Source: an uncultured Ruminococcus sp. (lineage in GTDB: Bacteria > Bacillota > Clostridia > Oscillospirales > Ruminococcaceae). From it: a DNA stretch of 54,680 nucleotides. A program made the position numbers and the translations under genes. Positions 41,057 through 54,680 of the stretch are shown here, piece after piece (position 1 is the stretch's first letter; every line of letters starts with the position of its first letter). Below the pieces are notes generated by a model, which worked only from the letters and a program-made list of their open reading frames with translations, did no database searches and was not told the DNA's origin. The DNA lies in NCBI GenBank assembly GCA_902776945.1, contig CACYSH010000009.1, positions 1-54,680 on the forward strand. Direction: 5' to 3'.

Positions 41057-42361
41057 ATGAAAACAAACAAGAGACTTATCTGCACGGCGGCGGCTTTGGT
41101 AATGGCTTTCGGCTGTACGGGGACTGTGCCGGGCGGCGTGTTTGAGGACATGGCTATCACGGCAAGCGCGGAAACAGTAACATCGGAAGACGGTAGATTT
41201 CAGTATGACCTGGTTTTCGGCGAGGCTCATATCACCAAATATTTGGAAACCGACCCGGACGTAGTTATCCCTTCCGAGATCGACGGTCATGAGGTAGCAG
41301 AGGTCAAGTCAATAGGCAGATATGAGCAGGATAAGACAATAAAAAGCATCGTTTTCCCCGATACTATCAAAACGATCGGGAGTTTTCAAATGTTAGTAGG
41401 CTTGGAAAAGGTGACTCTCGGCAAAAATGTTACGGTAATCGGGGGTTCGGCTTTTAGTGACTGCTATGCTCTTAAAGAGATAAATTTCCCCAACGGACTG
41501 AAAACGATAGGCGGCGGCGCATTTTCGAGAACCGGTTTAGAAAACATTACGCTTCCCGATACACTTACCGAAATCGGAGGCAATGCGTTCGCTTATACTA
41601 AAATATCATCAATAACCATACCCGACAGCGTTACAAGTTTAGGCTGGCATACATTCGCTTGTTGCCCTAATCTTGAAACAGTAGTTCTTTCCGACAATCT
41701 GACCACGGTAGATTTCCCCACCGTGTTTGCCGGCTGCGAAAAAATAAAAAGCTTTAATATTCCTAAAAGCTGTACAGAATTTTACGGGCCTGACAATTCA
41801 CAGATCGGAGAAACACTGGAGATCGCGGGCTTAGAAACACTGGGCGGTTTCGAATCCAACCAAAACCTTAAAAAAGTAAAGCTTGACTGCAAAACGATCT
41901 CCGGATTTAACGGCTGCGAACATCTGGAAAGTGTAGAGTTCGGCAGTAATGTCCGCGAGATAAGCGGCTTCTTTAACTGCACAAGCCTTATGAGCGTTAC
42001 CATTCCCAAAAACGTTACCAAAATAGATGCCTCATTTGGAGCTTACGGAGAGACCTATGCCCAGCAGCATTACAAAGGTTTCACGATTTACTGCTACAAG
42101 GGCACCGCAGGTGCAGAATACGCTGAAAAATGCGCTGAAAAATACGGCTATAAAGTAGTATATCTTGAAGACACCGTTAAGGGCGACGTAAACGGCGACA
42201 ACACAGTAGACGTTGACGACCTTGTTTTGGTTCAGAAAGCCGTTGCGGGCTGGAAGATCGACGAAAACTCCAAGAACGCCGCCGATGTGACAGGCGACGG
42301 CGTAGTCGATGTTGACGACATAATTTATATTCAGAAGAAGGTTGCAGGCTGGAAGGTCTAA
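41057..42361 (+). CDS. Secreted LRR protein with type I dockerin
   Basis: A 434-residue secreted protein. The signal peptide (about 1-33) has the core LICTAAALVMAFGCTGTV and ends near ASA. LRR_5 repeats span about 75-340, for example LENITLPDTLTEIGGNAFAY and ISSITIPDSVTSLGWHTF. The type I dockerin occupies about 375-434 with DVNGDNTVDVDDLVLVQKA and DVTGDGVVDVDDIIYIQKK. It should bind a cohesin, most likely on a cellulosome scaffold. SD aggagg precedes the ATG. The layout matches the gene at 14957, but the long leader and the neighbouring sigma fusion suggest separate control. Confidence 0.9.
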   Translation: MKTNKRLICTAAALVMAFGCTGTVPGGVFEDMAITASAETVTSEDGRFQYDLVFGEAHITKYLETDPDVVIPSEIDGHEVAEVKSIGRYEQDKTIKSIVFPDTIKTIGSFQMLVGLEKVTLGKNVTVIGGSAFSDCYALKEINFPNGLKTIGGGAFSRTGLENITLPDTLTEIGGNAFAYTKISSITIPDSVTSLGWHTFACCPNLETVVLSDNLTTVDFPTVFAGCEKIKSFNIPKSCTEFYGPDNSQIGETLEIAGLETLGGFESNQNLKKVKLDCKTISGFNGCEHLESVEFGSNVREISGFFNCTSLMSVTIPKNVTKIDASFGAYGETYAQQHYKGFTIYCYKGTAGAEYAEKCAEKYGYKVVYLEDTVKGDVNGDNTVDVDDLVLVQKAVAGWKIDENSKNAADVTGDGVVDVDDIIYIQKKVAGWKV

Positions 42362-42388
42362 AAACATCTGTTATATTTTCGCATAAAA

Positions 42389-42425
42389 ACAAAGGGGAGA
42401 GCCTTGCGGCTTTCCCCTCTTTGTT
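42389..42425. terminator. Bidirectional terminator
   Basis: aaaggggaga / tctcccctttgt type stem (aaaggggagagcc / ggctttcccctctt) between the convergent dockerin and DUF4830 genes. Confidence 0.85.
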
Positions 42426-42434
42426 TATTCACGG

Positions 42435-42953
42435 TCACGATACCCCTGAGCCGGTCTCCGTTACTGCGTCGGCTTCGGGCTTTACGGGCTTTGTGTTTTC
42501 ATCGGGAAGAAGCCCCTGCATGAAGCCGTCAAGCTCGGTGCAGCAAACGTCCCCGCCGATAAGTATGCCTTCCTCGCCTATAAGCGTCAGCTGCATATTT
42601 TCGGGGTGATCGGGGTAATTGTAGATGTCGTAGGTATAAAGCTCCGCAGACTTGCCCTTGTGGGCGGCAAGGTCGAAGCCCTGTTCCTTTTGCAGCGCAT
42701 TGTAGCCCTCGTAAACGTCGTCGAACTGCTCGGGGATAGTGATAGTCTTGTGCGATGTGGGCTTGTCGCCCGTCTGCCAGCCAAGCTCGGAGATAAGCGC
42801 CTGCCGCTGCTGTTCGGTCTGCACCTTATAGACGCGCCTGCTGCCGGATAGCTTTTTTGCCGCACCCGCCGCCGCAAGCACAGCCGCCGCACCAATGGTA
42901 ACGACTGCCAACGCGAATACCGTCCTGCTGAGTTTCACTGTTTTTATGTACAT
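42435..42953 (-). CDS. DUF4830 membrane-anchored protein
   Basis: A 172-residue protein with an N-terminal membrane helix (TVFALAVVTIGAAAVLAAAG). The outer domain matches DUF4830: QRQALISELGWQTG, ITIPEQFDDVYEGYNALQKE, QGFDLAAHKGKSAELYTYD and IGGDVCCTELDGFMQGL. The role of the family is unknown. The start at 42953 is preferred because gagggaa lies 6 bases upstream, while the ATG at 42959 abuts it. Confidence 0.85.
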   Translation of the reverse strand: MYIKTVKLSRTVFALAVVTIGAAAVLAAAGAAKKLSGSRRVYKVQTEQQRQALISELGWQTGDKPTSHKTITIPEQFDDVYEGYNALQKEQGFDLAAHKGKSAELYTYDIYNYPDHPENMQLTLIGEEGILIGGDVCCTELDGFMQGLLPDENTKPVKPEADAVTETGSGVS

Positions 42954-43123
42954 AAGCATTCCCTCGCTTCAAAATAGGTTTGTCTATTTATATGCGATGA
43001 AGCAAAGGGATATGCAAAAAAGCAGAATAAAAACCCGCGAAGCGGAAAAGGGGTCAAGGGAGACAACCACTCACAAAGAAGTTATTTCTAACCAAAAATC
43101 TTTTAATAGACAATACAGCGGAT

Positions 43124-43165
43124 AAACAAACACCGACATCCATAAATTAGATGTCGGTGCTTTTG
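43124..43165. terminator. Terminator of surface-protein operon
   Basis: caccgacatc / gatgtcggtg stem with A/T tracts on both sides. On the minus strand it ends the 47553-43211 operon. Confidence 0.85.
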
Positions 43166-43210
43166 TATTAGCTACATATCAACTGGATGCTTTTTAGTAT
43201 CCTCAAAATA

Positions 43211-46099
43211 TTAAGATACTACGTGTATCACCTTTTCTTGTGCCTTAGTCTTTACTGTAAGGTAATCATCCATATCCGAGCTTACACAAGTTATTCTGAT
43301 AACATATGTTGCTGATTTACCATCATCTGCAATTGTATATGAAGTTTCGAAGATGGCAGGAGCAGTTAAGTTACCAGTTTCCATTCTATTGACTTCAATT
43401 GAGTTATTAAGGAAGTTTTCTAATAATTCAATATTTGATTCGTCAATAGCGACATTAATTACCACGTCTTTATAACCTGTGTGATTTGAGAAATCAATAG
43501 TATAATTAGTATAGTGATTATACATATTCCCCGATGTATTACTCTCAAGACCGAGCTTAGGTTCAACAACCACTTGTAAATCTGTCAAGTCAATATCCAA
43601 ATCAGATTCTGCAGATAGCATAAATGTTCCTGGTTTATTCGAAGTATAGTCTATAATAAGATACGCCATATTACGATAGTTCGAAGATTTACTATACGAA
43701 TAACGATCTATAGTAATAGCTGGATCATTTGACACATATCTTATAGAGGATAATTCAGAATCAAAATTATCCGGATCTTTTGCATTATATGTCACCATCT
43801 CTGTTTCAGACTCACCGACAACGGTATACAATGTTGTGCATTTGTTTTCCTTAGTTACAGGATCCGGATTATCTTCTCCAGGCTCGTTTTCATTGTTATT
43901 AGAACCGCCATTATCCTCTTTTGTATACTCTAAATCAGGACTATCTGTAATGGAATTCTTTACGATAAGTTCTCCATTTTTAATTGCAAAGATATTCCAG
44001 TATCGTGCCTCGTTAAATCCAAGAGGAATATTGAAAGTTCTGACAAGGTTGTTTCCTTTATAAACTTTAACCTGTGCCTCAGAGTTTATGAGCGATCCGG
44101 ATGAACTATATCTGTAAATGTAATAATAGTATGCTTCCTCAGTTGTAGGATTAAGAGTTATTGTTTCAGGTCCATAACTGGAAGTGTCATCAACATCAAG
44201 TTCACATACTTTAGTAGTGCCGTCCATTGCCCTTTTGTTATTGTACATTACATGGAATGTATTACCATTTAACAAGGTACCCTGCATATGAGAATCAAGA
44301 TCGCTCGGAGTTGCGCCCCAAGTCAATACTATTCTAAATGTGTTTTCATCACCAATTGGTGTCATAACACCATTCTGTGCAAAGGTCTCTCCTTCTTGAA
44401 CAATAATATTCACCATGCCGGGAATATATCCATTCTTAGATACATTCAAAGTATAATATCCCAAAGGCAATTCAAGGCTATACTTTCCGTTGGAGTTAGT
44501 GTTGGCAGTTTTAATTACTTCACCTTGATCAGAATTATTCCAGCCGCTTCTTACAGAAATTGATACATTCTCAAGAGCTTTTCCGGTAATAGAATCTGAG
44601 ATCGTTCCGCTTGCCTTGCCGGATTCAGCATCGGATTTCCCGACTAACAGGAATGTTTCCAAATAAGTGGTTTTATCATCTGTAACGCTTGCATAACAGC
44701 TAAACGGAATAAAACCTTCAGCAGTTATTTCAATTCTGTAGTCTCCTACCGGAAGCTGAACGTTATATACACCATCTGAACCACTTGAAATAGATTGAAT
44801 AAAGCTATCACCACGATAAATCTTTATGTCTGCATTATTAATTGGAGTTGACCTATCACTTGCCTTGCAGATTTTTCCTGAGAGACGACCATAAATAATC
44901 GGTTTATTTCTTTCTGCTTGTTTTATAGGCTCTAATTCTGCTATCTTCTTATTGACCAGATTAGCATAATGTTCAGCACCTGTTTTATTTGGATGGGCGG
45001 ATGAATATCCAATTATTCCACCAATTCCTTCATCAAGTTTTTGACTGCCAAGGAAAGTTGTACCATTAATCCATGGTTTAAACGTTCCAATCACTCCCTC
45101 TGGCGCATCCATACCATGACCTTTGAACTCGGTGATTACAGAAACGTAATGAATTTTATCTCTTGTTATTCCGGGATTTTTTTCTCTTATTTCTTTGTTT
45201 ACTTCTTCAATTAATTTTGCTATTTCTCCTCCTTCACCATCTTCAGATTCTTCTTTTGACTGACAATAAGTCAAAACTAAATCATCAATTAGCTTTCTTT
45301 GTGTTAAGCCTGCCATAGCTGTATTGGTATATCTATAATATAGTTCCGGATAGCCAACTACTATTATATCAACTTGGTCACCTGCTTTACGATATGTATC
45401 CCAATATGCCTTCTTTAGATTTGTTCTTATTGTATCAGACCAAGCTTTGTTTGATTTGTCAATTTGATTCTTCAACCAATTAGGACTAAAAGCTCCTTTC
45501 CATGTATCTAAAAAACCATTAAGACAAATATCTACAAAACCCAAATCATTTCCACCTATAGACATAGTTACATAATCAACTTTGCCATACAACCCATTTT
45601 TATCGAAAACATCCAATTGTGGTGGTAAATAAGTTGTTTTAGAACCGTTCTCATTATCCCAAGTGGTTTTTTCTTGTCCCCTAATAAAATCAGAAGTAAC
45701 GGCACCTGATGATGCAACAAAGTACCATTGCAGCTCAGAATCTTGTTCACTTTTATTATACCACTGCACATCTTTTTTATTAAGTGGCATTTTATGATCT
45801 TTTACAGCCTTATTTCCAACAGTAAGTAATGAAGGCCAACTGTACATAGATCTATGAGCAAGCCAATCATTATTTACTATCTTAGAGGATCGTGGCAAAT
45901 CGTTTCCATTACTATCTATTTGTCCATAAAAAGGCTCAATTCCCTCTCCGGAGGAATACGAATCTCCCATTGAAACCACAATTATTGGTTTATCCTTTCC
46001 ATACGCATAGGCACTTATGGGAGAAGCAATCTCAAAAAATGAAAAAGAGAATATTATAGCCAACAATATTGATAATGGTCGCAAAACGCTTTTTTTCAT
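43211..46099 (-). CDS. Large secreted SGNH hydrolase with repeat domains
   Basis: A 962-residue secreted protein. The signal peptide covers 1-31. The SGNH domain runs to about 395: SMGDSYSSGEG gives nucleophile Ser47, SIGGNDLGF is block III, and SSAHPNKTGAEHY the late His. Two carboxypeptidase-regulatory-like beta domains follow (about 408-485 and 488-575, each with GxYxVxLPxGxYxIxI phrases), then a domain opening with LTWGATPSDLDSHM (about 585-700), an Asn/Glu/Pro linker and an unrecognised C-terminal beta region. The substrate is unknown. It is more AT-rich than the core genes. Its start overlaps the stop of the upstream gene by 4 bases. Confidence 0.83.
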   Translation of the reverse strand: MKKSVLRPLSILLAIIFSFSFFEIASPISAYAYGKDKPIIVVSMGDSYSSGEGIEPFYGQIDSNGNDLPRSSKIVNNDWLAHRSMYSWPSLLTVGNKAVKDHKMPLNKKDVQWYNKSEQDSELQWYFVASSGAVTSDFIRGQEKTTWDNENGSKTTYLPPQLDVFDKNGLYGKVDYVTMSIGGNDLGFVDICLNGFLDTWKGAFSPNWLKNQIDKSNKAWSDTIRTNLKKAYWDTYRKAGDQVDIIVVGYPELYYRYTNTAMAGLTQRKLIDDLVLTYCQSKEESEDGEGGEIAKLIEEVNKEIREKNPGITRDKIHYVSVITEFKGHGMDAPEGVIGTFKPWINGTTFLGSQKLDEGIGGIIGYSSAHPNKTGAEHYANLVNKKIAELEPIKQAERNKPIIYGRLSGKICKASDRSTPINNADIKIYRGDSFIQSISSGSDGVYNVQLPVGDYRIEITAEGFIPFSCYASVTDDKTTYLETFLLVGKSDAESGKASGTISDSITGKALENVSISVRSGWNNSDQGEVIKTANTNSNGKYSLELPLGYYTLNVSKNGYIPGMVNIIVQEGETFAQNGVMTPIGDENTFRIVLTWGATPSDLDSHMQGTLLNGNTFHVMYNNKRAMDGTTKVCELDVDDTSSYGPETITLNPTTEEAYYYYIYRYSSSGSLINSEAQVKVYKGNNLVRTFNIPLGFNEARYWNIFAIKNGELIVKNSITDSPDLEYTKEDNGGSNNNENEPGEDNPDPVTKENKCTTLYTVVGESETEMVTYNAKDPDNFDSELSSIRYVSNDPAITIDRYSYSKSSNYRNMAYLIIDYTSNKPGTFMLSAESDLDIDLTDLQVVVEPKLGLESNTSGNMYNHYTNYTIDFSNHTGYKDVVINVAIDESNIELLENFLNNSIEVNRMETGNLTAPAIFETSYTIADDGKSATYVIRITCVSSDMDDYLTVKTKAQEKVIHVVS

Positions 46100-47553
46100 A
46101 GTTTTTCAACCTCCTCAACAGTCAGATTGTCAAGTACGTCCGAATTAATATCGTCAACTTTCACAACAATCATTGCACTTTCTTTAGGAATAACCGTGTA
46201 GAATCTGTCCTTTTCATCATCATAACCGAATATGGTATTCGATGTTGACAGCATTGTTGTAACTTTGCGCTCTGTCTGCATATTAAAAGATAGAGGATTA
46301 GCGTAAATGTTCTTGCCAACTATGGTTACGTACCAGATCTCATTATTCTTCGAAAGATAGTATGTTCCATACATTGGGTGCTTAACATTCGAAGATGAAC
46401 TGCTTTCCTTCTCGCTATCAAAATCTCCGGACAGAGAATAATTATATGTGATAGGATAATCCTTAAATCCTTTTTCGTTCAGCAGTTTTGTAACCTCTTC
46501 TTCGCTAAGCGTTGTATCGGAAGTAACATCAACTACTTCAAGAATATCAGCATTTTCTTTGTAGTATTCTTCCGCTACAGACGGATTTTCTTCTTCCGAC
46601 GGTGTTGAAGTAATTGCTCCGTATTTCACAGTAGCGTTTAACACAACATCTTTGCCTTCTACGATCACATTAGTTTTAACCTTAATGCTTCTATCAGCAG
46701 CAGCAGCGCCTATATCAAGATTAAGCCCTACGCCCAAAATAACAGTGGTTATCATAGTGCCAGCAATTGCAATAGAGAGCATCTTTTTCTTTTCGGTCTT
46801 GCCTTTTCTTCCAACTGTAATAATAGTTAATGATACCGCAATAGCTGCAACGGCGTATGCCCACGCTCTATCGCCGCCACCGGGCTTTCCTTTCATACCT
46901 TTCTCTTCTTTTGAACTTGGATCGGGTTCCGGAGCTGAATCAGGAGTGCTGTCAGGTGTAGGACTCGGAGTTGGATCCGGTGCGGGTGAAGGAGCAATAG
47001 AACTTGAAGGTTCGGGACCAGGGGTAGGATTTGGTGTAGGTGTCGGCTGCGGAGCAACTACATCAGGCGTTTTAGTAGCACTATTGTTTGTAGCAAGGTT
47101 GGAAACAACGTTATTGGTTGTTGGTGGTTCATTACTTAAATCAGAATTGTTATTTGATGCGTCGCTACTGCTCGAATCATTTGAAGAACCAGACGTAGTA
47201 TTCGATGAATCATCGTTGTTATCAGTTTCTTTGGGAACAAATAACGTATCTAATTCAACCACTTCGTTACTTTTCAGCTCGCTAACAGTCTTATTCTTAT
47301 AATATCCGTCAGCGAGAACATAACCATCAGGTATCGTTTCATCAAGAACCAGATCATGAACGGTGTCCGAGTTTTTGTTTGTCACTTTAAGCGTAGCCTT
47401 GATTGTATCCGTTTTGCTATACTTATCCTTATCAGTTGAATAAGATACAGATAAGCCGTCCTGCTCGACTGTATCAGCACTTGAAGCAATTGCTGATAAA
47501 GAAGATACCATGGTCAAAGCTAACAGGAATGACAAGATTCTTTGGTTTCTCAT
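46096..47553 (-). CDS. Pro-rich surface protein with two membrane segments
   Basis: A 485-residue exported protein. A signal peptide (about 1-26, ending ASSA) is followed by a DUF11-like beta domain (KYSKTDTIKATLKVTNKNSD, to about 105). A Ser/Asn then Pro/Thr repeat region (PTPTPNPTPGPEPS type, about 110-215) should span the wall. Two membrane helices (about 228-247 and 258-280) flank a basic loop (GRKGKTEKKK). The rest (about 285-485) is beta-rich and outside or unknown. The SD aaaggagg is strong. It heads the operon with the SGNH gene, and its promoter region coincides with an inverted repeat of the putative switch. Confidence 0.78.
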   Translation of the reverse strand: MRNQRILSFLLALTMVSSLSAIASSADTVEQDGLSVSYSTDKDKYSKTDTIKATLKVTNKNSDTVHDLVLDETIPDGYVLADGYYKNKTVSELKSNEVVELDTLFVPKETDNNDDSSNTTSGSSNDSSSSDASNNNSDLSNEPPTTNNVVSNLATNNSATKTPDVVAPQPTPTPNPTPGPEPSSSIAPSPAPDPTPSPTPDSTPDSAPEPDPSSKEEKGMKGKPGGGDRAWAYAVAAIAVSLTIITVGRKGKTEKKKMLSIAIAGTMITTVILGVGLNLDIGAAAADRSIKVKTNVIVEGKDVVLNATVKYGAITSTPSEEENPSVAEEYYKENADILEVVDVTSDTTLSEEEVTKLLNEKGFKDYPITYNYSLSGDFDSEKESSSSSNVKHPMYGTYYLSKNNEIWYVTIVGKNIYANPLSFNMQTERKVTTMLSTSNTIFGYDDEKDRFYTVIPKESAMIVVKVDDINSDVLDNLTVEEVEKL

Positions 47554-47628
47554 AAAATTCCTCCTTTATGTATTGCATAAAATGCAAATTATTTAACATA
47601 ATTAAAACCGACGGATATATGAAAACTA

Positions 47629-47654
47629 TTTCTTATATTATACCATTATAAGAC
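47629..47654 (-). repeat. Left 26-bp inverted repeat of invertible segment
   Basis: Reads gtcttataatggtataat.. on the minus strand and matches the right repeat (49046) at 24 of 26 positions in opposite orientation. It holds a perfect -10 TATAAT pointing at the surface operon, but 17 bases upstream only TAAGCG is present, so the promoter looks inactive in this orientation. cttata / tataag arms make the site itself an imperfect palindrome, as expected for a tyrosine recombinase site. Confidence 0.75.
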
Positions 47655-47735
47655 GTTTGCGCTTAAATCGACGATATAACGTGGCTTTCACCTATTTCAC
47701 ACCACATTTCTGACCATGATCATCAAAAAAATAAT

Positions 47736-48833
47736 TCACTCATACAACCCCGCCAGCTTTTCACGTTTCAGATCCATATCCGTATACATATACCGTTCAA
47801 GAGTTACTTTTACACTCGAATGTCCCAAAAGCTCGCTAACGGTTTTGACGTCGATGCCCTTATTGATACAAGTGGTCGCAAAGGTCGAGCGCAGACTATG
47901 GAATTTTCTGTAAGGTACGTTGGCGGCTTTGAGCAGTCTTTCATAATGATACTGATAGGAACGCGGTTCAATTATCCTATTGCTCCCCGTAAGGAAATAA
48001 TCATTTTTGCTGCGGCTCCGCTTCATTTCTGACAACCGCTCTATCATATTTTGCGGCAGCGGAATATCCCTTATGGACTTGCGGCTCTTTGGCTCGGTGA
48101 TGATTATTTTCGTTTTAGAAGTTCCGGCAGGATTCTTTATCCTTGAAAGTGTATGCCGAACAGACAGTACAGCGTTCTCAATATCTATATTTTTCCAAGT
48201 AATCGCGCATATCTCTCCGATGCGGAGCCCGGTATACAGACAAAGTAATATGCCGAGTTCATAGCTGTTATTCAGATCTGCGGCGGCTTTGATACGGTTG
48301 ATCTCATCAGAATTAAACACCGTAATATCGTGGTTTTCGCTTCTTGGAAGGTTCAAATTCTTTGCTGGACTGTCTATGCCGTATTCGGTTTCGGCGTGAG
48401 CGAATACCGAACGCAGCATTATCAGAACTGACTGAACGGTTGCCGCAGACAGCGTTGCGCCCTTCCTGCTTTCTGTATTCAAAAGTTCATCAGCGTACAG
48501 GTTGAGCATATTTGAAGTGACCGATGTTACTCTGTATCCACCAAGCCTTCCTGCTACATAGCAATCGAACAGGTTTATATATGCCGAATAAGTCGATTCT
48601 TTGACTGTGTTTTTTCGGGCAAGCAGCCATGAATTAAACAACTCATTTACTGTCATGGATTTTGATACGGGTATTCTGTGTAGCTTTGCATCCAAAAGCT
48701 TTGCGGAGCATTCCGAATAGCTACGGGCGTATACTGATGAATACATTGCCTTACCGTCAGAGCGTCTGCCCGAGATGTACCGTCCTTCCCAGCGCCCGTC
48801 CTTGCGCTTGAAAATGTTTTCTCCTCGTCTCAT
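47736..48833 (-). CDS. Tyrosine recombinase, probable DNA invertase
   Basis: A 365-residue tyrosine recombinase. The opening GENIFKRKDGRWEGRYI is an AP2-like arm-binding strand. An SAM-like core-binding domain spans about 60-160. The catalytic residues are R204 (TGLRIGE), H312 and R315 (FHSLRSTF), H338 (LGHSS) and nucleophile Tyr348 (LERYMYTD). All are intact. The gene lies between inverted, not direct, 26-bp repeats, so it probably inverts the segment that carries it instead of mobilising an element. No excisionase gene is seen nearby. Confidence 0.9.
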   Translation of the reverse strand: MRRGENIFKRKDGRWEGRYISGRRSDGKAMYSSVYARSYSECSAKLLDAKLHRIPVSKSMTVNELFNSWLLARKNTVKESTYSAYINLFDCYVAGRLGGYRVTSVTSNMLNLYADELLNTESRKGATLSAATVQSVLIMLRSVFAHAETEYGIDSPAKNLNLPRSENHDITVFNSDEINRIKAAADLNNSYELGILLCLYTGLRIGEICAITWKNIDIENAVLSVRHTLSRIKNPAGTSKTKIIITEPKSRKSIRDIPLPQNMIERLSEMKRSRSKNDYFLTGSNRIIEPRSYQYHYERLLKAANVPYRKFHSLRSTFATTCINKGIDVKTVSELLGHSSVKVTLERYMYTDMDLKREKLAGLYE

Positions 48834-49034
48834 TACTTATTCCTCCTCGAAAATGAATAAGTAAATTATATCATTTCCGACCATTGTTTTGACCATAAAT
48901 AGGCGAAATAAAGCAGATATTATAGCCTAAACAAATATATGATTTTAAACAGCAGTTGAAATCGCATGGTTAAATTTATTAATTATTTGTAACATATGTC
49001 GGATAATTTTATACAAATTCAGCAAATCCATCAA

Positions 49035-49071
49035 TTGATTTCCATGTCTTATAATGGTATATTACAAGAAA
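49035..49071 (+). promoter_or_regulatory. Right inverted repeat with outward promoter
   Basis: The right repeat is 49046-49071. TTGATT (49035-49040) lies inside the segment and is spaced 17 bases from TATATT (49058-49063) within the repeat. In this orientation the promoter points at the 3' end of the SLOG gene; after inversion the same -35 would face the TATAAT of the left repeat at the same 17-base distance and drive the surface operon. Confidence 0.65.
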
Positions 49072-49097
49072 AATCGGATAAAGATGTAGTAGGTGCC

Positions 49098-49565
49098 TTA
49101 CATCGCCACAAGATTTATCACCTGCTTACCTAACTTCTCCGCATACCTAACCGCTTTGAAAGCACCGCCCATCTCTTGTTCAATAGCGGAAATAACGAAA
49201 TCACTGCGGTCTATCATGCACTTGTTCCTTACAAAGATAGCCGCTTTCGGGTGGGCAGCCGCAGCTTCGTGGCAGATTTCTATTTCATCATAATAGGCTT
49301 CATAGCTTTCACGGTTGTTACGGTAATCAGCTCTCTCGTAAGGCAAAACGAGAATATGCGACACGTTCCCATAGGCGCAGCTTTCTTTTGCCCTGCGGAT
49401 AGCGGAGGATACAAGCTGATCGAACTCTCCGTCCCGCCCGACAAGAAACTCGACGTATTCCTTGGTGTTTATTAGGTCACGTAGGATAGGCTCCAGCTGC
49501 GATTCTATGCTAAATGTGTCGGACAAGTGCCTGTGACCGAAAAATGACACTGTAAATATTTGCAT
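49098..49565 (-). CDS. SLOG-superfamily protein
   Basis: A 155-residue protein of the SLOG/DUF1273-like Rossmann group. FTVSFFGHRHLSD is the first strand and glycine loop, and FLVGRDGEFDQLVSSAIRRA the second nucleotide-binding motif. IDRSDFVISAIEQEMGGAFKAVRYAEKLGK completes the fold. Such domains bind nucleotides or related signals and are common in stress and defence contexts. The SD aaggaga is 5 bases upstream. It is divergent from an XRE regulator. Confidence 0.78.
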   Translation of the reverse strand: MQIFTVSFFGHRHLSDTFSIESQLEPILRDLINTKEYVEFLVGRDGEFDQLVSSAIRRAKESCAYGNVSHILVLPYERADYRNNRESYEAYYDEIEICHEAAAAHPKAAIFVRNKCMIDRSDFVISAIEQEMGGAFKAVRYAEKLGKQVINLVAM

Positions 49566-49696
49566 AATATCTCCTTATCGACTTATTACTACAATATATT
49601 TTACCCTAAAATAATAGTATTGTCAACCCATATATTTATATTAATTTTTATTACAAAACATACTATAATAAATGTAGTGAAAGGAGCTGCATTATT

Positions 49697-50005
49697 ATGG
49701 AGATCGGCGAACGTCTGCGCAGTATCAGAAAATCTAAAAAAATGAGCATCTATAAATTGTCGCAGGAAACGGGAATATCACAAAACCACATCAGTGATCT
49801 GGAACTTGGCAGAAGAAAACCGTCTGTTGAAACTCTTAAAAGACTTATCGTACCGCTGGGAATTACCCTCGCAGAGCTTTTCAACGAGGATACAGAGGCT
49901 TCGATTCTTAACGAAAAAGAAAGAGAACTTATCGAGAATTACCGCACCCTGCCAGATAATAAAGCTGAAAGTCTGCTTAACCTCAGCAGATTACTTAATG
50001 AATAA
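49697..50005 (+). CDS. XRE-family transcription regulator
   Basis: A 102-residue protein. Residues 4-60 are a Cro/C1 helix-turn-helix (LRSIRKSKKMSIYKLSQETG, then ISQNHISDLELGRRKPS). The C-terminal 40 residues are acidic and helical. SD aaaggag. It is divergent from the SLOG gene. A tactataat box near 49663 may be its -10. Confidence 0.88.
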   Translation: MEIGERLRSIRKSKKMSIYKLSQETGISQNHISDLELGRRKPSVETLKRLIVPLGITLAELFNEDTEASILNEKERELIENYRTLPDNKAESLLNLSRLLNE

Positions 50006-50151
50006 AGCATTAACACGAAAGCAGCGATTCACGGTACGAAATGCATATAACCATTATGTCCCCGGAATTCCTTACCTTTTGAGATGAGTATTACAAGACG
50101 AACACAGATTCTCTGCACAGGCTGACTGATGAGAAGAAAAATGGCATAAAA

Positions 50152-50192
50152 AGAGTGCAGGTCATCTTTTGGCAAAGAACTGCACTTTTAAA
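50152..50192 (+). terminator. Weak hairpin terminator
   Basis: gagtgcag / ctgcacttt arms with a long loop, followed by mixed T and A runs. The rest of the 50006-50294 gap shows no gene; ctataataat near 50232 may be the -10 of the next gene. Confidence 0.4.
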
Positions 50193-50294
50193 AAAATATT
50201 GCTCAGGTTATTCCATTTTGAATATTATTATGCTATAATAATATAGACATAAATTTCCTATCATGGAATTGACCACTCTGTTCGGAGGTTATAT

Positions 50295-51398
50295 ATGAGT
50301 AACATTGCCAATATTGATGAAGAATACAGAAAATGGATTGAAAAGATAACCCTTGAATACCGCAGCAGTCAGATAAAGGCTGCAATCAAAGTGAATGCCC
50401 AACTGCTTGCGTTCTATTGGAATCTCGGCAGGGACATCGTAAGTATGCAGGCACAGAGCAAATGGGGAAGTAAGCTCCTTGAAAATGTCAGCAAAGATCT
50501 GAAAAAGCAGCTTCCCGACGCAAAAGGCTTTTCAAAGACAAATCTGTTCTATATCACCAACTTTTTCAGCTTGTATTCGCCCTTAGAAACCGAGAAAGAG
50601 ACCGTTCCTCAAATAGAGGATCAAATTACTCCCCAAGTTGGGGAACAAATTGAGATCGGTTCAAAGTACGGTATTACGGTGCAGGATCTGTTCTCGATTC
50701 CGTGGGGACACCATAAGCTGATAATCGACAAATGTGGGAAATCTCTCGAAAAAGCGTGTTTTTATGTCAGAGAAACATTATCAAACAACTGGTCAAGGGC
50801 GCTATTGCTGAACTTTATTGACAGCGATCTGTATTCAAGACAGGGTGCGGCAGTCACTAACTTTTCTAAAACGCTCCCGATAGCAACAGGAGAGCTTGCA
50901 CAAGAGATGACAAGAGACCCGTACTGCTTTGATTTCCTCACTCTTAGTACTCCGTATCTCGAAAAAGAGCTGAAAGACGCTCTCATGGATAATATCACAA
51001 AGTTCATGCTAGAGCTTGGCAAGAGCTTTGCCTTTGTAGGCAGGGAGTACCGTCTCGTGGTTGGTCAAACGGAGCAGTTTATTGATATGCTGTTCTATAA
51101 CATCAAGCTGCACTGCTATGTTGTGATAGAGGTCAAGGTGAGAGAGTTCCAGCCGGGAGACATCGGTCAGCTTTCGACCTATGTGTCTGCGGTTGACGGA
51201 TTGCTTTGTGATGAACATGACAACCGCACCGTCGGTCTGCTTATATGCAAGACTAAAGATAACGTACTTGCGAAGTATGCTGTAAACGGAATCGACCTTC
51301 CACTCGGCATATCTGAATATGAGCTTTCAAAGCTCCTGCCCGATGACTTCAAAGGTTCTCTGCCGACCATTGAAGAAATTGAGAACGGGCTGAAATAG
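50295..51398 (+). CDS. YhcG-type PDDEXK nuclease (DUF1016)
   Basis: A 367-residue DUF1016 protein. The N-terminal domain (about 10-160) has VNAQLLAFYWNLGRDIVS, SKDLKKQLPDAKGFS and LFSIPWGHHKLIIDK. The C-terminal nuclease domain holds FIDMLFYNIKLHCYVVIEVKV, the D-xn-ExK core of the PD-(D/E)XK fold, followed by DIGQLSTYVSAVD. Members are often found beside restriction genes in accessory islands. Here it stands alone, convergent with DUF6076. Cleavage of foreign DNA is inferred from the family. Confidence 0.9.
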   Translation: MSNIANIDEEYRKWIEKITLEYRSSQIKAAIKVNAQLLAFYWNLGRDIVSMQAQSKWGSKLLENVSKDLKKQLPDAKGFSKTNLFYITNFFSLYSPLETEKETVPQIEDQITPQVGEQIEIGSKYGITVQDLFSIPWGHHKLIIDKCGKSLEKACFYVRETLSNNWSRALLLNFIDSDLYSRQGAAVTNFSKTLPIATGELAQEMTRDPYCFDFLTLSTPYLEKELKDALMDNITKFMLELGKSFAFVGREYRLVVGQTEQFIDMLFYNIKLHCYVVIEVKVREFQPGDIGQLSTYVSAVDGLLCDEHDNRTVGLLICKTKDNVLAKYAVNGIDLPLGISEYELSKLLPDDFKGSLPTIEEIENGLK

Positions 51399-51414
51399 AA
51401 TTGCAGACATAATA

Positions 51415-51446
51415 AGTCGGAAAGTATGGCGATATACTTTCCGACT
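51415..51446. terminator. Hairpin between convergent genes
   Basis: Perfect 13-base arms agtcggaaagtat / atactttccgact with a 6-base loop, without a long T-tract. Confidence 0.6.
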
Positions 51447-51462
51447 ATTCTATGATATAAGA

Positions 51463-52827
51463 TCATTCCTTCTTTTTCCGATTCTTAAAGCTGTTATACA
51501 GCCACTCCTCAAACTCCTGCGGAGTTATCTCACCGTCCTGACACCTGTCCCGCATCTCGACAGCCTTATAATTCCACTGCTTGAAATCGTCGAGTTTGAT
51601 CTGCCGCACCTTAGTCCTCGCATAGTAACGTTTGTAATACTTGCGGAACAGCGCAGTCGCATCGTCCGTTTTGAGCTTTTCGTCGTACTTCTTCTGCGCC
51701 CCGATCTGCTGGCAGGTGCGCGTCTGCCCCTCACGGATACGATTGCAGAAGTCGGAAACGTAATTCCCCTTAACGATGAAATACCGCCCGCAGATTTTAC
51801 ACTTGTGCAGACGGGTGCCGTATTCAAGCATTTTAGTGAACTCCAGCTCCAGCATATCGTGAAGAGTGCTGACGCTGTATTCAATCGCCATGAACCTCGG
51901 CGCATGATAGAATAACTGAACCCTGCCCGCTTTGAGCCCAAGCGCTTCTTCAAGCGGGCTTTGTTCGTCTGTCGGGGAGTAGCTTTTGAGCCTTTGCACT
52001 ATTTCCGAGGGATCAATATTTCCTCGATTGAGTTGCCGAGCACTGAAGTTGCCAAGCATAGTGAACCGTTCGTCGCGATTGAATGAAAGCGGCGTACCGT
52101 AAATGTCGGCGTAAAGAGAATACCGCTCGCAGGGCAGGAACTTTGACAGCTCGTCAGGATAGAATTCATCATCGAACACGAACTCGATACGGCGCATCAT
52201 CTCTTTTTGTACCTCGGTGATGTATCGGATAAACGTGGGAATGGTATCTTTTGCGAACTCTTGAATATACGGCGGGAATATACTGCTGTACACCGACTGA
52301 TAGAGATATTCGCCTAACGTTGTGAGCGTCCGCTCCATGTGGTCTTGCTCGACTTCGTAGACTTCCTCGCGGTTGTGAACTATGTCCTCCCGCTTTCTGC
52401 CTTGGCTGAAAATATGCCCGAAAAGCAAAATGCCATCCTGTTCTTTGGTGAAGTCGGTGTAGCAGAAATCGAGTATGCCCTCGCCGACGTAAAACGAAAT
52501 GTCAAGCCCCGTAAACGGGTTCAGCTTCCAGTTAGGTGCGCTATCATTCCGCGTTCTCAAAGTAAAAGCGTCGCGGTAGACGTAATCTCCATTCGCATTA
52601 ATAATGTCAAGCTCGTCAACGGGCTTAGTGGGTTCGCGCTCTTCGCCTTCCTCCAAGGGCGTGTTATCCTCAACCTCGTACCTCGTGCTGACGTGAATAT
52701 TTGCAATATGCTCCTCCTCGTCAAAGTAGACTTTGTTCGGAAAACCGTCAAAAGCGATGTCACGGCGGTTCACGCGAATAGCCTGATAGACCTCTAAGGG
52801 CGTGTATGTGTAGTACTCTTTTTTCAT
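51463..52827 (-). CDS. DUF6076 protein with CGNR-like zinc finger
   Basis: A 454-residue protein. Most of it (1-340) is of unknown fold. Residues about 345-390 contain KCKICGRYFIVKG and DFCNRIREGQTRTC, a treble-clef-like zinc finger similar to CGNR fingers that bind nucleic acid. A helical, basic tail ends in FKNRKKKE. The family is widespread in Firmicute accessory regions. Its link to the neighbouring oriT and mob genes is positional only. Confidence 0.7.
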   Translation of the reverse strand: MKKEYYTYTPLEVYQAIRVNRRDIAFDGFPNKVYFDEEEHIANIHVSTRYEVEDNTPLEEGEEREPTKPVDELDIINANGDYVYRDAFTLRTRNDSAPNWKLNPFTGLDISFYVGEGILDFCYTDFTKEQDGILLFGHIFSQGRKREDIVHNREEVYEVEQDHMERTLTTLGEYLYQSVYSSIFPPYIQEFAKDTIPTFIRYITEVQKEMMRRIEFVFDDEFYPDELSKFLPCERYSLYADIYGTPLSFNRDERFTMLGNFSARQLNRGNIDPSEIVQRLKSYSPTDEQSPLEEALGLKAGRVQLFYHAPRFMAIEYSVSTLHDMLELEFTKMLEYGTRLHKCKICGRYFIVKGNYVSDFCNRIREGQTRTCQQIGAQKKYDEKLKTDDATALFRKYYKRYYARTKVRQIKLDDFKQWNYKAVEMRDRCQDGEITPQEFEEWLYNSFKNRKKKE

Positions 52828-52899
52828 TTTCGTTCCTCCCGATTTTGGACAATAAGATTTTTCAATATTTCTTGCAATTATTGTGTCAAGACCATGCTA

Positions 52900-53340
52900 T
52901 AATTAAATTGAGCTCAAGAAACGACTGTTCCGGAACAGGGTACAAAGAGGTGAAGTAAAAAATGCAGACGTAAAACGCAGTAAGGTAAAAAATGCTTGAA
53001 ATAATCCAAAATGGGGAACCAGCCTTCGGAACGAAAATCCGATTTTGTACCAAAATGATTGTTATTTTTAGCTAGTTGGACAGGTACATTTTTCGACTTT
53101 TGTACCTTCGGAGTAACGAAAGCGAGCCCGAGAGGATTATTAGCAGCCCATACGGGCTAAGCAAGGAAACGTGTAGATGGGAATTTTTGGCTATAACTAG
53201 CGAGCCATAGATTTTGTACGTACAAAATCCGCGCTTTTCCGCCCGACGGACGTCGGACGGCGCGATCTGCCTTGCGGCAGCCCGCGAAAAGCGGCTCGTT
53301 GGGAGCGCCCAAACCCCTAAAATGCAAGGAGGAACGCCTA
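52900..53340 (+). other. Probable oriT / mobilisation control region
   Basis: A gene-free stretch before mobC. It contains a perfect 20-base palindrome gattttgtacgtacaaaatc (53210-53229), two more (a/c)ttttgtac words (53040, 53096), and GC-rich hairpins such as ctgccttgcggcag and cgcgaaaagcgg. A tataat box lies at 52899. Such a layout before a MobC gene is typical of a transfer origin. The nick site cannot be placed. Confidence 0.5.
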
Positions 53341-53706
53341 TTGAAGAACGAAGTACAAAAGTTGAAAAAGAAGTACAAGCGTAAGGGACAGAGAAAGGAA
53401 GTTCTGTTCAAAGATGACGAGTGGGAGATCGTGAAAAGGAACGCAGCCCGCATGGGATTAGATACTTCAAAGTACATTGTGATGATGTCGCTGAACGGTA
53501 ATTCTGCCCCATACCGAATTTCTGAACTTTCAGAACTGTGTCAGCAGTTGAGCAGGATAGGTAACTGTATCAACCAGCTTGCCCGCAAAGCGAATACTAT
53601 CAACAACATTTACGCCGAGGACTATGAAAGAATGAAGGAGGAGAACGCCCGCCTGTGCCTTACCTTAAATCGCGCGATATTCATGTTACGCCGAACCGCA
53701 GCCTGA
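53341..53706 (+). CDS. mobC: MobC-family mobilisation protein
   Basis: A 121-residue basic relaxosome accessory protein. The RHH-like start (KEVLFKDDEWEIVKRNAARMGLDTSKYI) and the helical end (QLSRIGNCINQLARKANTIN) are the MobC pattern. These proteins help the relaxase at oriT. The start is TTG at 53341, with aaggagg 7 bases upstream; the frame continues further left without a start signal. The relaxase frame begins inside this gene. Confidence 0.82.
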   Translation: MKNEVQKLKKKYKRKGQRKEVLFKDDEWEIVKRNAARMGLDTSKYIVMMSLNGNSAPYRISELSELCQQLSRIGNCINQLARKANTINNIYAEDYERMKEENARLCLTLNRAIFMLRRTAA

Positions 53707-53990
53707 ATTATATCTGTGACCCGAAGAAAACGCAGAACGGGCTGAACATCGTCTCGCTGAACTGTATGCCCGACCCGCGGAACGCTTACGAGGAAATGAA
53801 GCGGATTCTGACGTCCGTCTACACCTCTCTGACCGAGAAGGGTTATAACCCCATCAATCAGATCGTGGGCTATCTCCTTTCCGAGGACCCGACCTACATT
53901 ACCAACCACAACAACGCCCGCGCCATGATCTGCCGTCTGGACCGCGACGACGTCCTGCAGGAGATCGTGCGCCACTATCTGTTCGACTGA
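53655..53990 (+). pseudogene. Relaxase N-terminus joined in frame to IreB C-terminus
   Basis: The GTG start at 53655, with ggaggag upstream, opens a relaxase: PYLKSRDIHVTPNRSLNYI, then CDPKKTQNGLNIVSLNC and DPRNAYEEMK. From about residue 52 (near 53805) the protein changes to LTSVYTSLTEKGYNPINQIV, GYLLSEDPTYITNHNNARAM and CRLDRDDVLQEIVRHYL, which is the IreB (DUF965) regulatory phosphoprotein without its first 20 or so residues. The relaxase lacks most of its catalytic domain, so it cannot work. Either DNA was joined in the cell by insertion and deletion, or two unrelated sequences were joined in assembly. I favour the latter slightly. Confidence 0.75.
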
Positions 53991-54013
53991 GCGTTCCCGC
54001 TTCGTCGGGGGCC

Positions 54014-54048
54014 AATCGGGGCTGGCTCGCAAGGGCCGGCCCCGATTT
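54014..54048 (+). terminator. Terminator after ireB
   Basis: aatcggggctggc / gccggccccgattt stem with a short loop, directly after the IreB stop codon. Confidence 0.8.
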
Positions 54049-54195
54049 GTCCGGCAGGGGCAGAGCTTGCCCTTCCCTGTAACAATTTCATATTTATCCT
54101 CGCTTTCAGAAGCCTGATTATCCCCGGCATTCGGACCAAATTGTGTTCTTTTGTTAAGAATTCGGCAAGAAATTGTCATTTTCGAAACTTAATAC

Positions 54196-54224
54196 TTGAC
54201 AAATCCATCACAATGAGTTACAAT
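54196..54224 (+). promoter_or_regulatory. Promoter of small conserved gene
   Basis: TTGACA (54196-54201), 17 bases, TACAAT (54219-54224). Confidence 0.8.
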
Positions 54225-54253
54225 TTGGTTACATTAAGTTAGGAGGTGCTCTT

Positions 54254-54541
54254 ATGGCTGACCAAGAGGGTCTCATGTACAAGGGCCATCCCTTGATGCG
54301 CAAGGACAACATTTGTTATTACGGCTCCATGGCGGATTCGCACATCGTAATCCTCCAGGTTCTCGAGTCGAAGGATTTCAGCGATCTCAAGCTCGCGACG
54401 AAGGTCTCCGTTCAGCTCCAGCTGACCGACCAGACCGCCCGTCCCAGAGACCGGATCGTAAAGAAAACCGAGAAGGAAGGCTTCTACACCGCGCTTGACG
54501 TCGGCGCCGTTTGGCTCGACCGCGCCCTGTCTTCCAAGTAA
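54254..54541 (+). CDS. Small conserved-type protein, unknown
   Basis: A 95-residue soluble protein that I do not recognise. It has the opening GLMYKGHPLMRKDNICYYGSM, a central beta-strand (SHIVILQVLESK) and a closing LDVGAVWLDRAL. SD aggaggtg lies 5 bases before the ATG. Codon use is richer in CTC, GTC and ATC than in the main part of the window, as in the IreB part and the next gene. It has its own promoter. Confidence 0.7.
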   Translation: MADQEGLMYKGHPLMRKDNICYYGSMADSHIVILQVLESKDFSDLKLATKVSVQLQLTDQTARPRDRIVKKTEKEGFYTALDVGAVWLDRALSSK

Positions 54542-54561
54542 TTCTGAAAGCGAGGGTACTT

Positions 54562-54680
54562 ATGAAAAGACTCAACACCAGACTGATCGCAGTTCTGCTG
54601 ACCGTCTGCCTGCTGGCTGGCATGGCGATCCCCGCCTACGCCACCGAGCTGAAGACCGGTATCGGCGTCGTCACCGCCTC
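54562..54680 (+). CDS. Secreted protein, 5' part only
   Basis: The frame opens with a signal peptide (NTRLIAVLLTVCLLAGMAI, then PAYA) after gcgaggg and runs off the window after 39 codons. The mature start ELKTGIGVVTAS resembles the opening of bacterial SH3-domain wall proteins, often with an NlpC/P60 end, but too little is present to name it. Confidence 0.6.
   Translation, partial: MKRLNTRLIAVLLTVCLLAGMAIPAYATELKTGIGVVTA

Follow-up and report, generated by a model that had tools for sequence, protein, structure and literature searches.

The cassette and its surroundings

The window analysed here (the whole stretch of 54,680 nucleotides) is the whole of one contig (C9) in a 4.0-Mb assembly of 280 contigs. 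Between positions 47629 and 49071, a tyrosine recombinase gene is enclosed by two 26-bp sequences in opposite orientation, and an operon of two genes for predicted secreted or membrane proteins follows in the same direction as the recombinase. The features, from the operon towards the far end of the segment, are:

43211-46099, minus strand: predicted target gene 2, a secreted protein of 962 aa (with a signal peptide recognized by eye, carboxypeptidase-regulatory-like domains and a GDSY motif)
46096-47553, minus strand: predicted target gene 1, a secreted or membrane protein of 485 aa (with a signal peptide recognized by eye and a sub-cutoff Pfam match to DUF11)
47629-47654, minus strand: left (operon-side, B) recombination site, half-sites TCTTATAAT and TCTTATATT flanking the 5-bp spacer GGTAT; it carries the operon-facing extended -10 TGGTATAAT
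47637-47642, minus strand: -10 TATAAT within the left site, facing the operon; inversion would supply TTGATT
47660-47665, minus strand: -35 slot at 17 bp, holding TAAGCG and thus no -35 in the orientation shown
47711-47717, minus strand: ATGGTCA past the recombinase stop, in the same direction; putative arm-type site
47736-48833, minus strand: tyrosine recombinase of 365 aa with N-terminal strands-plus-helix, core-binding and catalytic domains
48878-48896, minus strand: putative arm-type sites ahead of the recombinase start, formed by the direct repeats ATGGTCG and ATGGTCA at a 12-bp interval (48878-48884, the degenerate copy with GTCG, and 48890-48896)
48919-48948, minus strand: candidate recombinase promoter TTAAAA-18-TATAAT, a consensus match only, not above chance
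49035-49040, plus strand: -35 TTGATT, inside the segment and directed outward
49046-49071, plus strand: right (promoter-side, A) recombination site, an inverted copy of the left one, 24/26 identical
49058-49063, plus strand: -10 TATATT within the right site, 17 bp from the -35 TTGATT

A search of Rfam gave no match within 42000-54680.

The recombinase

The open reading frame of the recombinase is intact and matches PF00589 (E 5.9e-25). Residues R204, H312, R315, H338 and Y348, which we take to be part of the tyrosine-recombinase catalytic set, occupy invariant columns in an alignment of 17 sequences. The structure model (mean pLDDT 87, pTM 0.71) places three strands (residues 6-9, 15-23 and 29-36) and a helix (39-51) ahead of the core-binding domain, a layout that is presumably that of the arm-binding domain of the Tn916 and lambda integrases. 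The best whole-chain fold match is the Tn1549 integrase (6en2, E 3.8e-14, an entry that lacks the N-terminal domain), followed by lambda integrase, and the closest sequence matches in the PDB are the Int protein chains 6en0, 6emy and 6emz. The NCBIfam model for tyrosine-type DNA invertases, PRK09870, gives the window protein 24 bits against a cutoff of 221; by E-value alone, it matches 12 of the 17 aligned family members at 0.001 or better. As modelled, the recombinase resembles the integrases of Tn1549 and lambda and carries an additional N-terminal domain that is putatively arm-binding.

Recombination sites of the window

The initial annotation had described two inverted arms of 26 bp, matching at 24 positions, around an intact recombinase, an operon-facing TATAAT in the left arm with TAAGCG instead of a -35 at the proper distance, and a TTGATT exactly 17 bp ahead of the TATATT in the right arm; each of these was recovered at the coordinates listed above. 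The inner half-site and the spacer are the same in both arms, the two mismatches fall in the outer half-sites, and TGG precedes both -10 boxes, making them extended. With three mismatches allowed, a pattern fitted to the arms occurs twice in the window (0.02 expected), and a similar pattern finds the two window sites only across the whole assembly. When 2000 random placements of similar geometry were scored on the contig, all scores of 20 or more were the window arm pair itself (10 placements); among 2900 placements elsewhere the top score was 16 and nine reached 14. The assembly-wide site count and the placement control rule out a chance origin of the arm pair. The promoter elements are less distinctive: consensus matches in the cassette region number 8 against 7.5 in shuffles, so that the claim of a promoter in the window rests on its conservation in relatives.

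A family of cassettes

Relatives of the recombinase were gathered from whole genomes (sets of 61, 13 and 396), from named genome contigs (the best 80 of at least 574 relatives) and from viral contigs (the best 80 of 314). Recombinases scoring at least 190 bits against the window protein were taken as the family and those below 190 bits as distant integrases. The relatives collected include 137 distinct family recombinases, the window's among them, and 124 of the 137 have full flanks (at least 300 bases upstream and 150 downstream). Inverted repeats of their own (score of at least 14) flank 104 of these 124, compared with 2 of 65 distant integrases; the pair is missing in the other 20. As a background, mismatched pairings of upstream and downstream flanks reach a score of 14 in 1.0% of 1032 cases (first set). 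The median distance from recombinase to site is 190 bases upstream and 73 downstream. After removal of identical copies, 106 cassettes have a median segment of 1413 bp and a median arm of 24 bp, many of the segments being mutually related and hence no independent samples. A quick tree of 194 proteins requires a minimum of 21 changes of the repeat-flanked state (51 in shuffles); the state is clustered without forming one clean clade. Among the members that lack the flanking pair, at L058 and L118 the repeat pair adjoins the recombinase gene rather than flanking a cassette, and at L147 it overlaps the recombinase stop.

A second family member in the window's own genome is truncated by the end of contig C44 (L246:10228-10464; 79 residues at 49% identity); a TTTCGCAAA motif lies past its stop, and this is probably another cassette. 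Other members are found on viral contigs and plasmids. The cassettes of Butyricicoccus pullicaecorum, Blautia glucerasea and Agathobaculum massiliense (L082, L084, L085) are identical and their flanks of 1.6-4 kb nearly so, which suggests that a larger mobile element carrying the cassette probably moved recently. At L124:3050-4630 the site is tandemly duplicated inside a 73-bp repeat at both cassette ends. On the Ruminococcus albus 7 plasmid pRUMAL02 (L318), the surroundings of a family member include two more tyrosine recombinases and three genes with the annotation 'recombinase family protein'. Members on Enterococcus plasmids (L311-L317) have a longer 3' spacer of about 125-230 bp, and the repeat pair of L317 scores just 12.

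Core sites and putative arm-type repeats

Many arms of the family show dyad symmetry. With half-sites of 9, a spacer of 5, 7 or 9 and at least 8 positions pairing, about 40-43% of A-arms and 27-30% of B-arms are symmetric, compared with 0-1% of shuffles, and even spacers give almost no symmetry. The arm of L042, TCGCAGAGT-TAGTC-ACTCTGCGA, is an example; the subclade members L033 and L286 fall below the threshold.

Imperfect arms could also mean that the window holds a real switch that is locked or dying, its arms having drifted by two mismatches and flipping having been lost. The position of both mismatches in outer half-sites would fit such decay, as would the three of eight loci in the window subclade (L284, L285 and L287) where no inverted pair was found. 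Outer half-site differences between arms also occur in relatives, however, the inner half-site and spacer of the window are identical in both arms, and the recombinase is intact and keeps the alignment's invariant residues. Loss of switching is therefore distinctly unlikely.

A second kind of repeat lies beside the recombinase gene. On the recombinase strand, 82 of the 106 cassettes have GTCA within 70 bases upstream of the start codon (53 with at least two copies), and 83 have it within 45 bases downstream of the stop (40 with at least two copies). The reverse complement, TGAC, is found in 13 cassettes upstream and 8 downstream, and distant integrases carry GTCA in 14/74 cases upstream and 7/74 downstream. 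Successive copies are 12 bases apart in 72 of the 102 spacings listed. From this arrangement we infer that the GTCA repeats are putative arm sites of the lambda type.

A promoter-like sequence at one end

Promoter-like scores were counted when they exceeded the 95th percentile of mononucleotide shuffles, in 85 segments. Directed outward, such scores occur at the recombinase-start end in 76/85 segments and at the other end in 3/85; in the two inward directions the counts are 6/85 and 4/85. In most members the entire promoter lies inside the segment, the -10 often being 50-90 bases from the outer arm edge. The window and its closest relatives differ from these in that the -10 sits inside the recombination site. 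All seven A-ends of this subclade with a site (the window, L282, L283, L285, L286, L287 and L033) have TTGATT or TTGAAA 17 bp before a TATA-type -10 in the site, the spacing being judged by eye; in the eighth member, L284, no site was found. At the opposite end, TATAAT is present in all five B-sites found in the subclade (the window, L282, L283, L286 and L033). In four of the five no -35 was seen at 16-18 bases, and L033 has TTGAGA at 18 bases.

The inferred crossover would cut through the -10 box in the window subclade. Because the -10 lies inside the site and the -35 stands 17 bp before it, inversion would assemble a promoter. The initial annotation had proposed that inversion builds a promoter for the operon, and with a crossover placed in the spacer the predicted product is TTGATT-17-TATAAT facing the operon. 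A swap of whole arms would instead put TATATT before the operon, so that the product hinges on where the crossover falls.

Evidence for inversion

Related cassettes were compared in 38 pairs whose segments align over at least 600 bases and which share at least one flank near an arm. The two members have the same orientation in 29 pairs and opposite orientations in 7, and 2 pairs are mixed; one opposite pair, L289/L290, is based on 52 bp and is used only within the count of 7. Two pairs have both flanks swapped with respect to the segment. The first, L043 and L047, consists of paralogous loci in a single genome with segments 83% identical; one flank matches at 92%, starting 6-8 bases beyond the arm, and the other at 81%, starting 163-214 bases beyond it. 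L062 and L073 come from two MAGs of the 'Lapin' series with segments 80% identical, and their flanks are 74% identical from 7-8 bases and 80% from 75-138 bases outside the arm. In addition, L142, on a viral contig, is opposite to L043 on one flank. Contig ends provide a different kind of observation: of 24 that lie within 700 bases of a family recombinase, 2 finish in a perfect inverted copy of the flank on the other side (55 bp at L103, 136 bp at L115) that extends beyond the arm. Such ends would be expected if the reads contained both orientations, one flank being joined to both ends; an assembly artefact could also produce them.

Opposite orientations could instead reflect separate insertions of a small mobile element, similar to an insertion sequence or a reduced integrative element, with the inverted repeats as its ends. 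The identical cassettes in Butyricicoccus, Blautia and Agathobaculum and the members on plasmids and viral contigs are consistent with mobility, as is the fact that in each swapped pair the alignment of one flank begins no closer to the arm than 75-214 bases. The second flank, however, aligns from 6-8 bases outside the arm around orthologous segments, and the near-identical 1.6-4 kb flanks of the three genera indicate that a larger element moved. Copies within one genome differ in their end sequences (G001 loci), and the promoter-like sequence is confined to one side. Independent insertion thus appears very improbable. Taken together, these comparisons make inversion within the family well supported.

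At the window locus itself, no inverted copy was found in genome collections with one genome per species. Five Enterococcus raffinosus records, which cover two cassettes in three and two records, show one orientation only. A search of viral contigs with the arm pattern found nothing, and viral-contig searches with three family recombinases yielded no near-identical cassette in opposite orientation among the matches listed. Inversion is very likely in the family, and flipping of the window segment and its control of the operon are likely.

The predicted target operon and neighbouring genes

A GGAGG resembling a ribosome-binding site precedes the first ATG of the two-gene operon, and the interval from the left arm to the operon start showed no promoter-like site in the direction of the operon. 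The GDSY of the 962-aa protein is, we assume, the motif of SGNH hydrolases. Among 61 genomes, relatives of the two operon proteins were matched in 4 and 12 genomes besides their own, with partial coverage.

No terminator-like hairpin was found between the recombinase and the operon in the window, so some read-through is possible. Across the family, such hairpins lie between recombinase and far site in 7 of 106 cassettes (1.5% in shuffles), and their rarity means that read-through could blur the OFF state. A terminator switch of the cwpV kind was discarded on these same counts. When the genes beside the 106 cassettes are called simply as the longest ORFs, the first one points away from the cassette more often on the 3' side of the recombinase (81/98) than on its 5' side (45/103). 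The outward first gene is on the 3' side only at 47 loci, on the 5' side only at 11, on both sides at 32 and on neither at 5, the rest being cut by contig ends. The excess of 47 over 11 suggests either that the predicted OFF state dominates assemblies or that the assignment of states is wrong.

The second possibility corresponds to the main alternative, a cassette that inverts but is expressed in the orientation shown, the operon being read through from the recombinase promoter and inversion silencing it or altering its level. The shared direction of recombinase and operon, the lack of a detected hairpin between them, the 81/98 first genes pointing away and the scarcity of hairpins on that side would all suit this arrangement. 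It leaves unexplained why an outward promoter-like sequence occupies the opposite end in 76/85 segments and why an operon-facing TATAAT is present in 5/5 B-sites of the subclade; we consider it unlikely.

The genes on the 3' side are varied. Among 74 scanned, domains of LytTR and response-regulator type occur in 12, of HTH_3 type in 5, BspA-type leucine-rich repeats in 4, dockerin domains in 4 and DEAD helicase domains in 3. Within the window subclade, the gene faced by L286 encodes a BspA/dockerin protein and that faced by L282 a signal peptidase. A response-regulator gene recurs on the 3' side at L038, L078, L083, L095 (Ruminococcus flavefaciens FD-1), L103, L104, L106 and L119, and in several cases a gene judged by eye to be relaxase-like lies on the opposite side; comparable pairs among these loci have the same orientation, and the contig end of L103 has the opposite junction. 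In the two annotated Enterococcus records, L311 precedes an operon with signal peptidases and L317 one with WxL proteins. The cassette at L112:7670-9270, which shares its segment with L310, is bordered on both sides by a 181-bp inverted leader and long genes related to each other; the arrangement looks like an either/or switch between two genes.

Beyond the right site, positions 49098-49565 (minus strand) of the window encode a 155-aa protein that starts with MQIFTVSFFGHR and has no Pfam match. Its homologs adjoin family recombinases in G001:C32 (between two cassettes), G006:C132 and G008:C98. A fixed coupling of the cassette to this neighbour was considered and rejected, as 3 of the fetched homolog loci are near a family recombinase and 13 are without one. 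Further along, positions 50295-51398 (plus strand) encode a DUF1016/YhcG nuclease of the PDDEXK type adjoining an HTH gene, and positions 53272-53706 (plus strand), near the contig end, encode a NikA/MobC-like relaxosome protein, which hints at a mobilizable element close by.

Proposed mechanism

Positions 47629-49071 most probably constitute a self-contained invertible promoter cassette, shown in the orientation predicted to be OFF for the operon. The proposal of the initial annotation, an invertible promoter switch carrying its own recombinase, gains support from the family of cassettes, the promoter-like sequence at one end, the swapped flanks and the split promoter of the subclade. The core-binding and catalytic domains would bind the two inverted end sites, and the N-terminal domain would probably bind the GTCA repeats beside the recombinase gene. 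Recombination between both sites would then invert the 1.4-kb segment, recombinase gene included. Since the likely binding sites lie inside the segment, save for the outer half-sites, each flip would remake the substrate, and the switch would be reversible. One end of the segment would supply an outward -35, and in the subclade the -10 would be composed of the crossover spacer and the outer half-site. With the segment as shown, the end next to the operon (47553-43211) lacks a -35, and the operon would be low or OFF; after inversion, TTGATT-17-TATAAT would face the operon and turn it ON.

For the family as a whole, we lean, if only slightly, towards 1.4-kb plug-in modules for phase variation that are widespread in Bacillota. 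A lambda/Tn1549-type integrase, core sites that vary in sequence between members, arm sites and an outward promoter would form one invertible unit, and in the window subclade a crossover through the -10 would assemble the promoter. Because every flip would remake the same substrate with its arm sites inside the segment, no directionality factor would be needed. On this reading, around a hundred loci, in Clostridia and on plasmids of Enterococcus, would be phase-variable; their neighbours include response regulators, surface proteins and helicases. Searches for repeat pairs at short spacing, as under the 750-bp limit associated with tools of this kind, would miss cassettes of 1.4 kb. The split -10 design also provides a testable link, namely competition between recombinase and RNA polymerase for one site.

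Comparison with known systems

By the defining feature of invertons, inverted repeats around a promoter-bearing segment are present in the window, the promoter being recognized by sequence. In the flagellar switch of Salmonella, excerpts of PMC2784873 and PMC5903667 place the Hin recombinase gene within the inverted DNA, and an excerpt of PMC3798978 describes Hin as a serine recombinase with a Fis-bound enhancer. As with Hin, the recombinase gene of the window cassette lies inside the segment between the inverted repeats, together with a promoter predicted to change direction. The window enzyme is a tyrosine recombinase of the integrase type (PF00589 and fold), and the cassette is thus Hin-like in layout but outside the Hin family. 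Unlike in Hin, the promoter of the window subclade would be completed at the crossover.

In the fim switch, tyrosine recombinases (FimB and FimE) invert a promoter-bearing segment ahead of a surface operon, as predicted for the window locus. FimB and FimE are encoded next to their switch (excerpt of PMC2784873), whereas the window recombinase lies inside the segment, has an extra N-terminal domain and scores far below the cutoff of PRK09870. The RecV switches of C. difficile are likewise clostridial and combine inverted repeats with a tyrosine recombinase that controls a surface protein. At cwpV, according to the excerpt of PMC2784873, the segment is 195 bp, the promoter is outside and recV is encoded elsewhere; the window segment, in contrast, is 1.4 kb and holds both the recombinase gene and promoter elements.

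Inverton group 139 resembles the window in the excerpts of PMC11892184, being clostridial and associated with a tyrosine-type recombinase. This group of gut Clostridia (33 members, 32 from Clostridia) is statistically linked there to the nearby tyrosine recombinase/invertase group 35, and two examples span about 255 bp, too short to hold a recombinase gene. Integrases of the Tn1549/Tn916 type are the best fold and sequence matches of the window enzyme, but the window sites are inverted rather than direct, and its 1.4-kb unit contains the recombinase gene alone, with no conjugative element between the sites.

No such cassette is named in the excerpts of PMC8138268 and PMC11868660. Invertible promoters as such are well known; in the open-licence literature searched, no family was described whose tyrosine integrase, with probable arm sites, flips its own gene along with the promoter.
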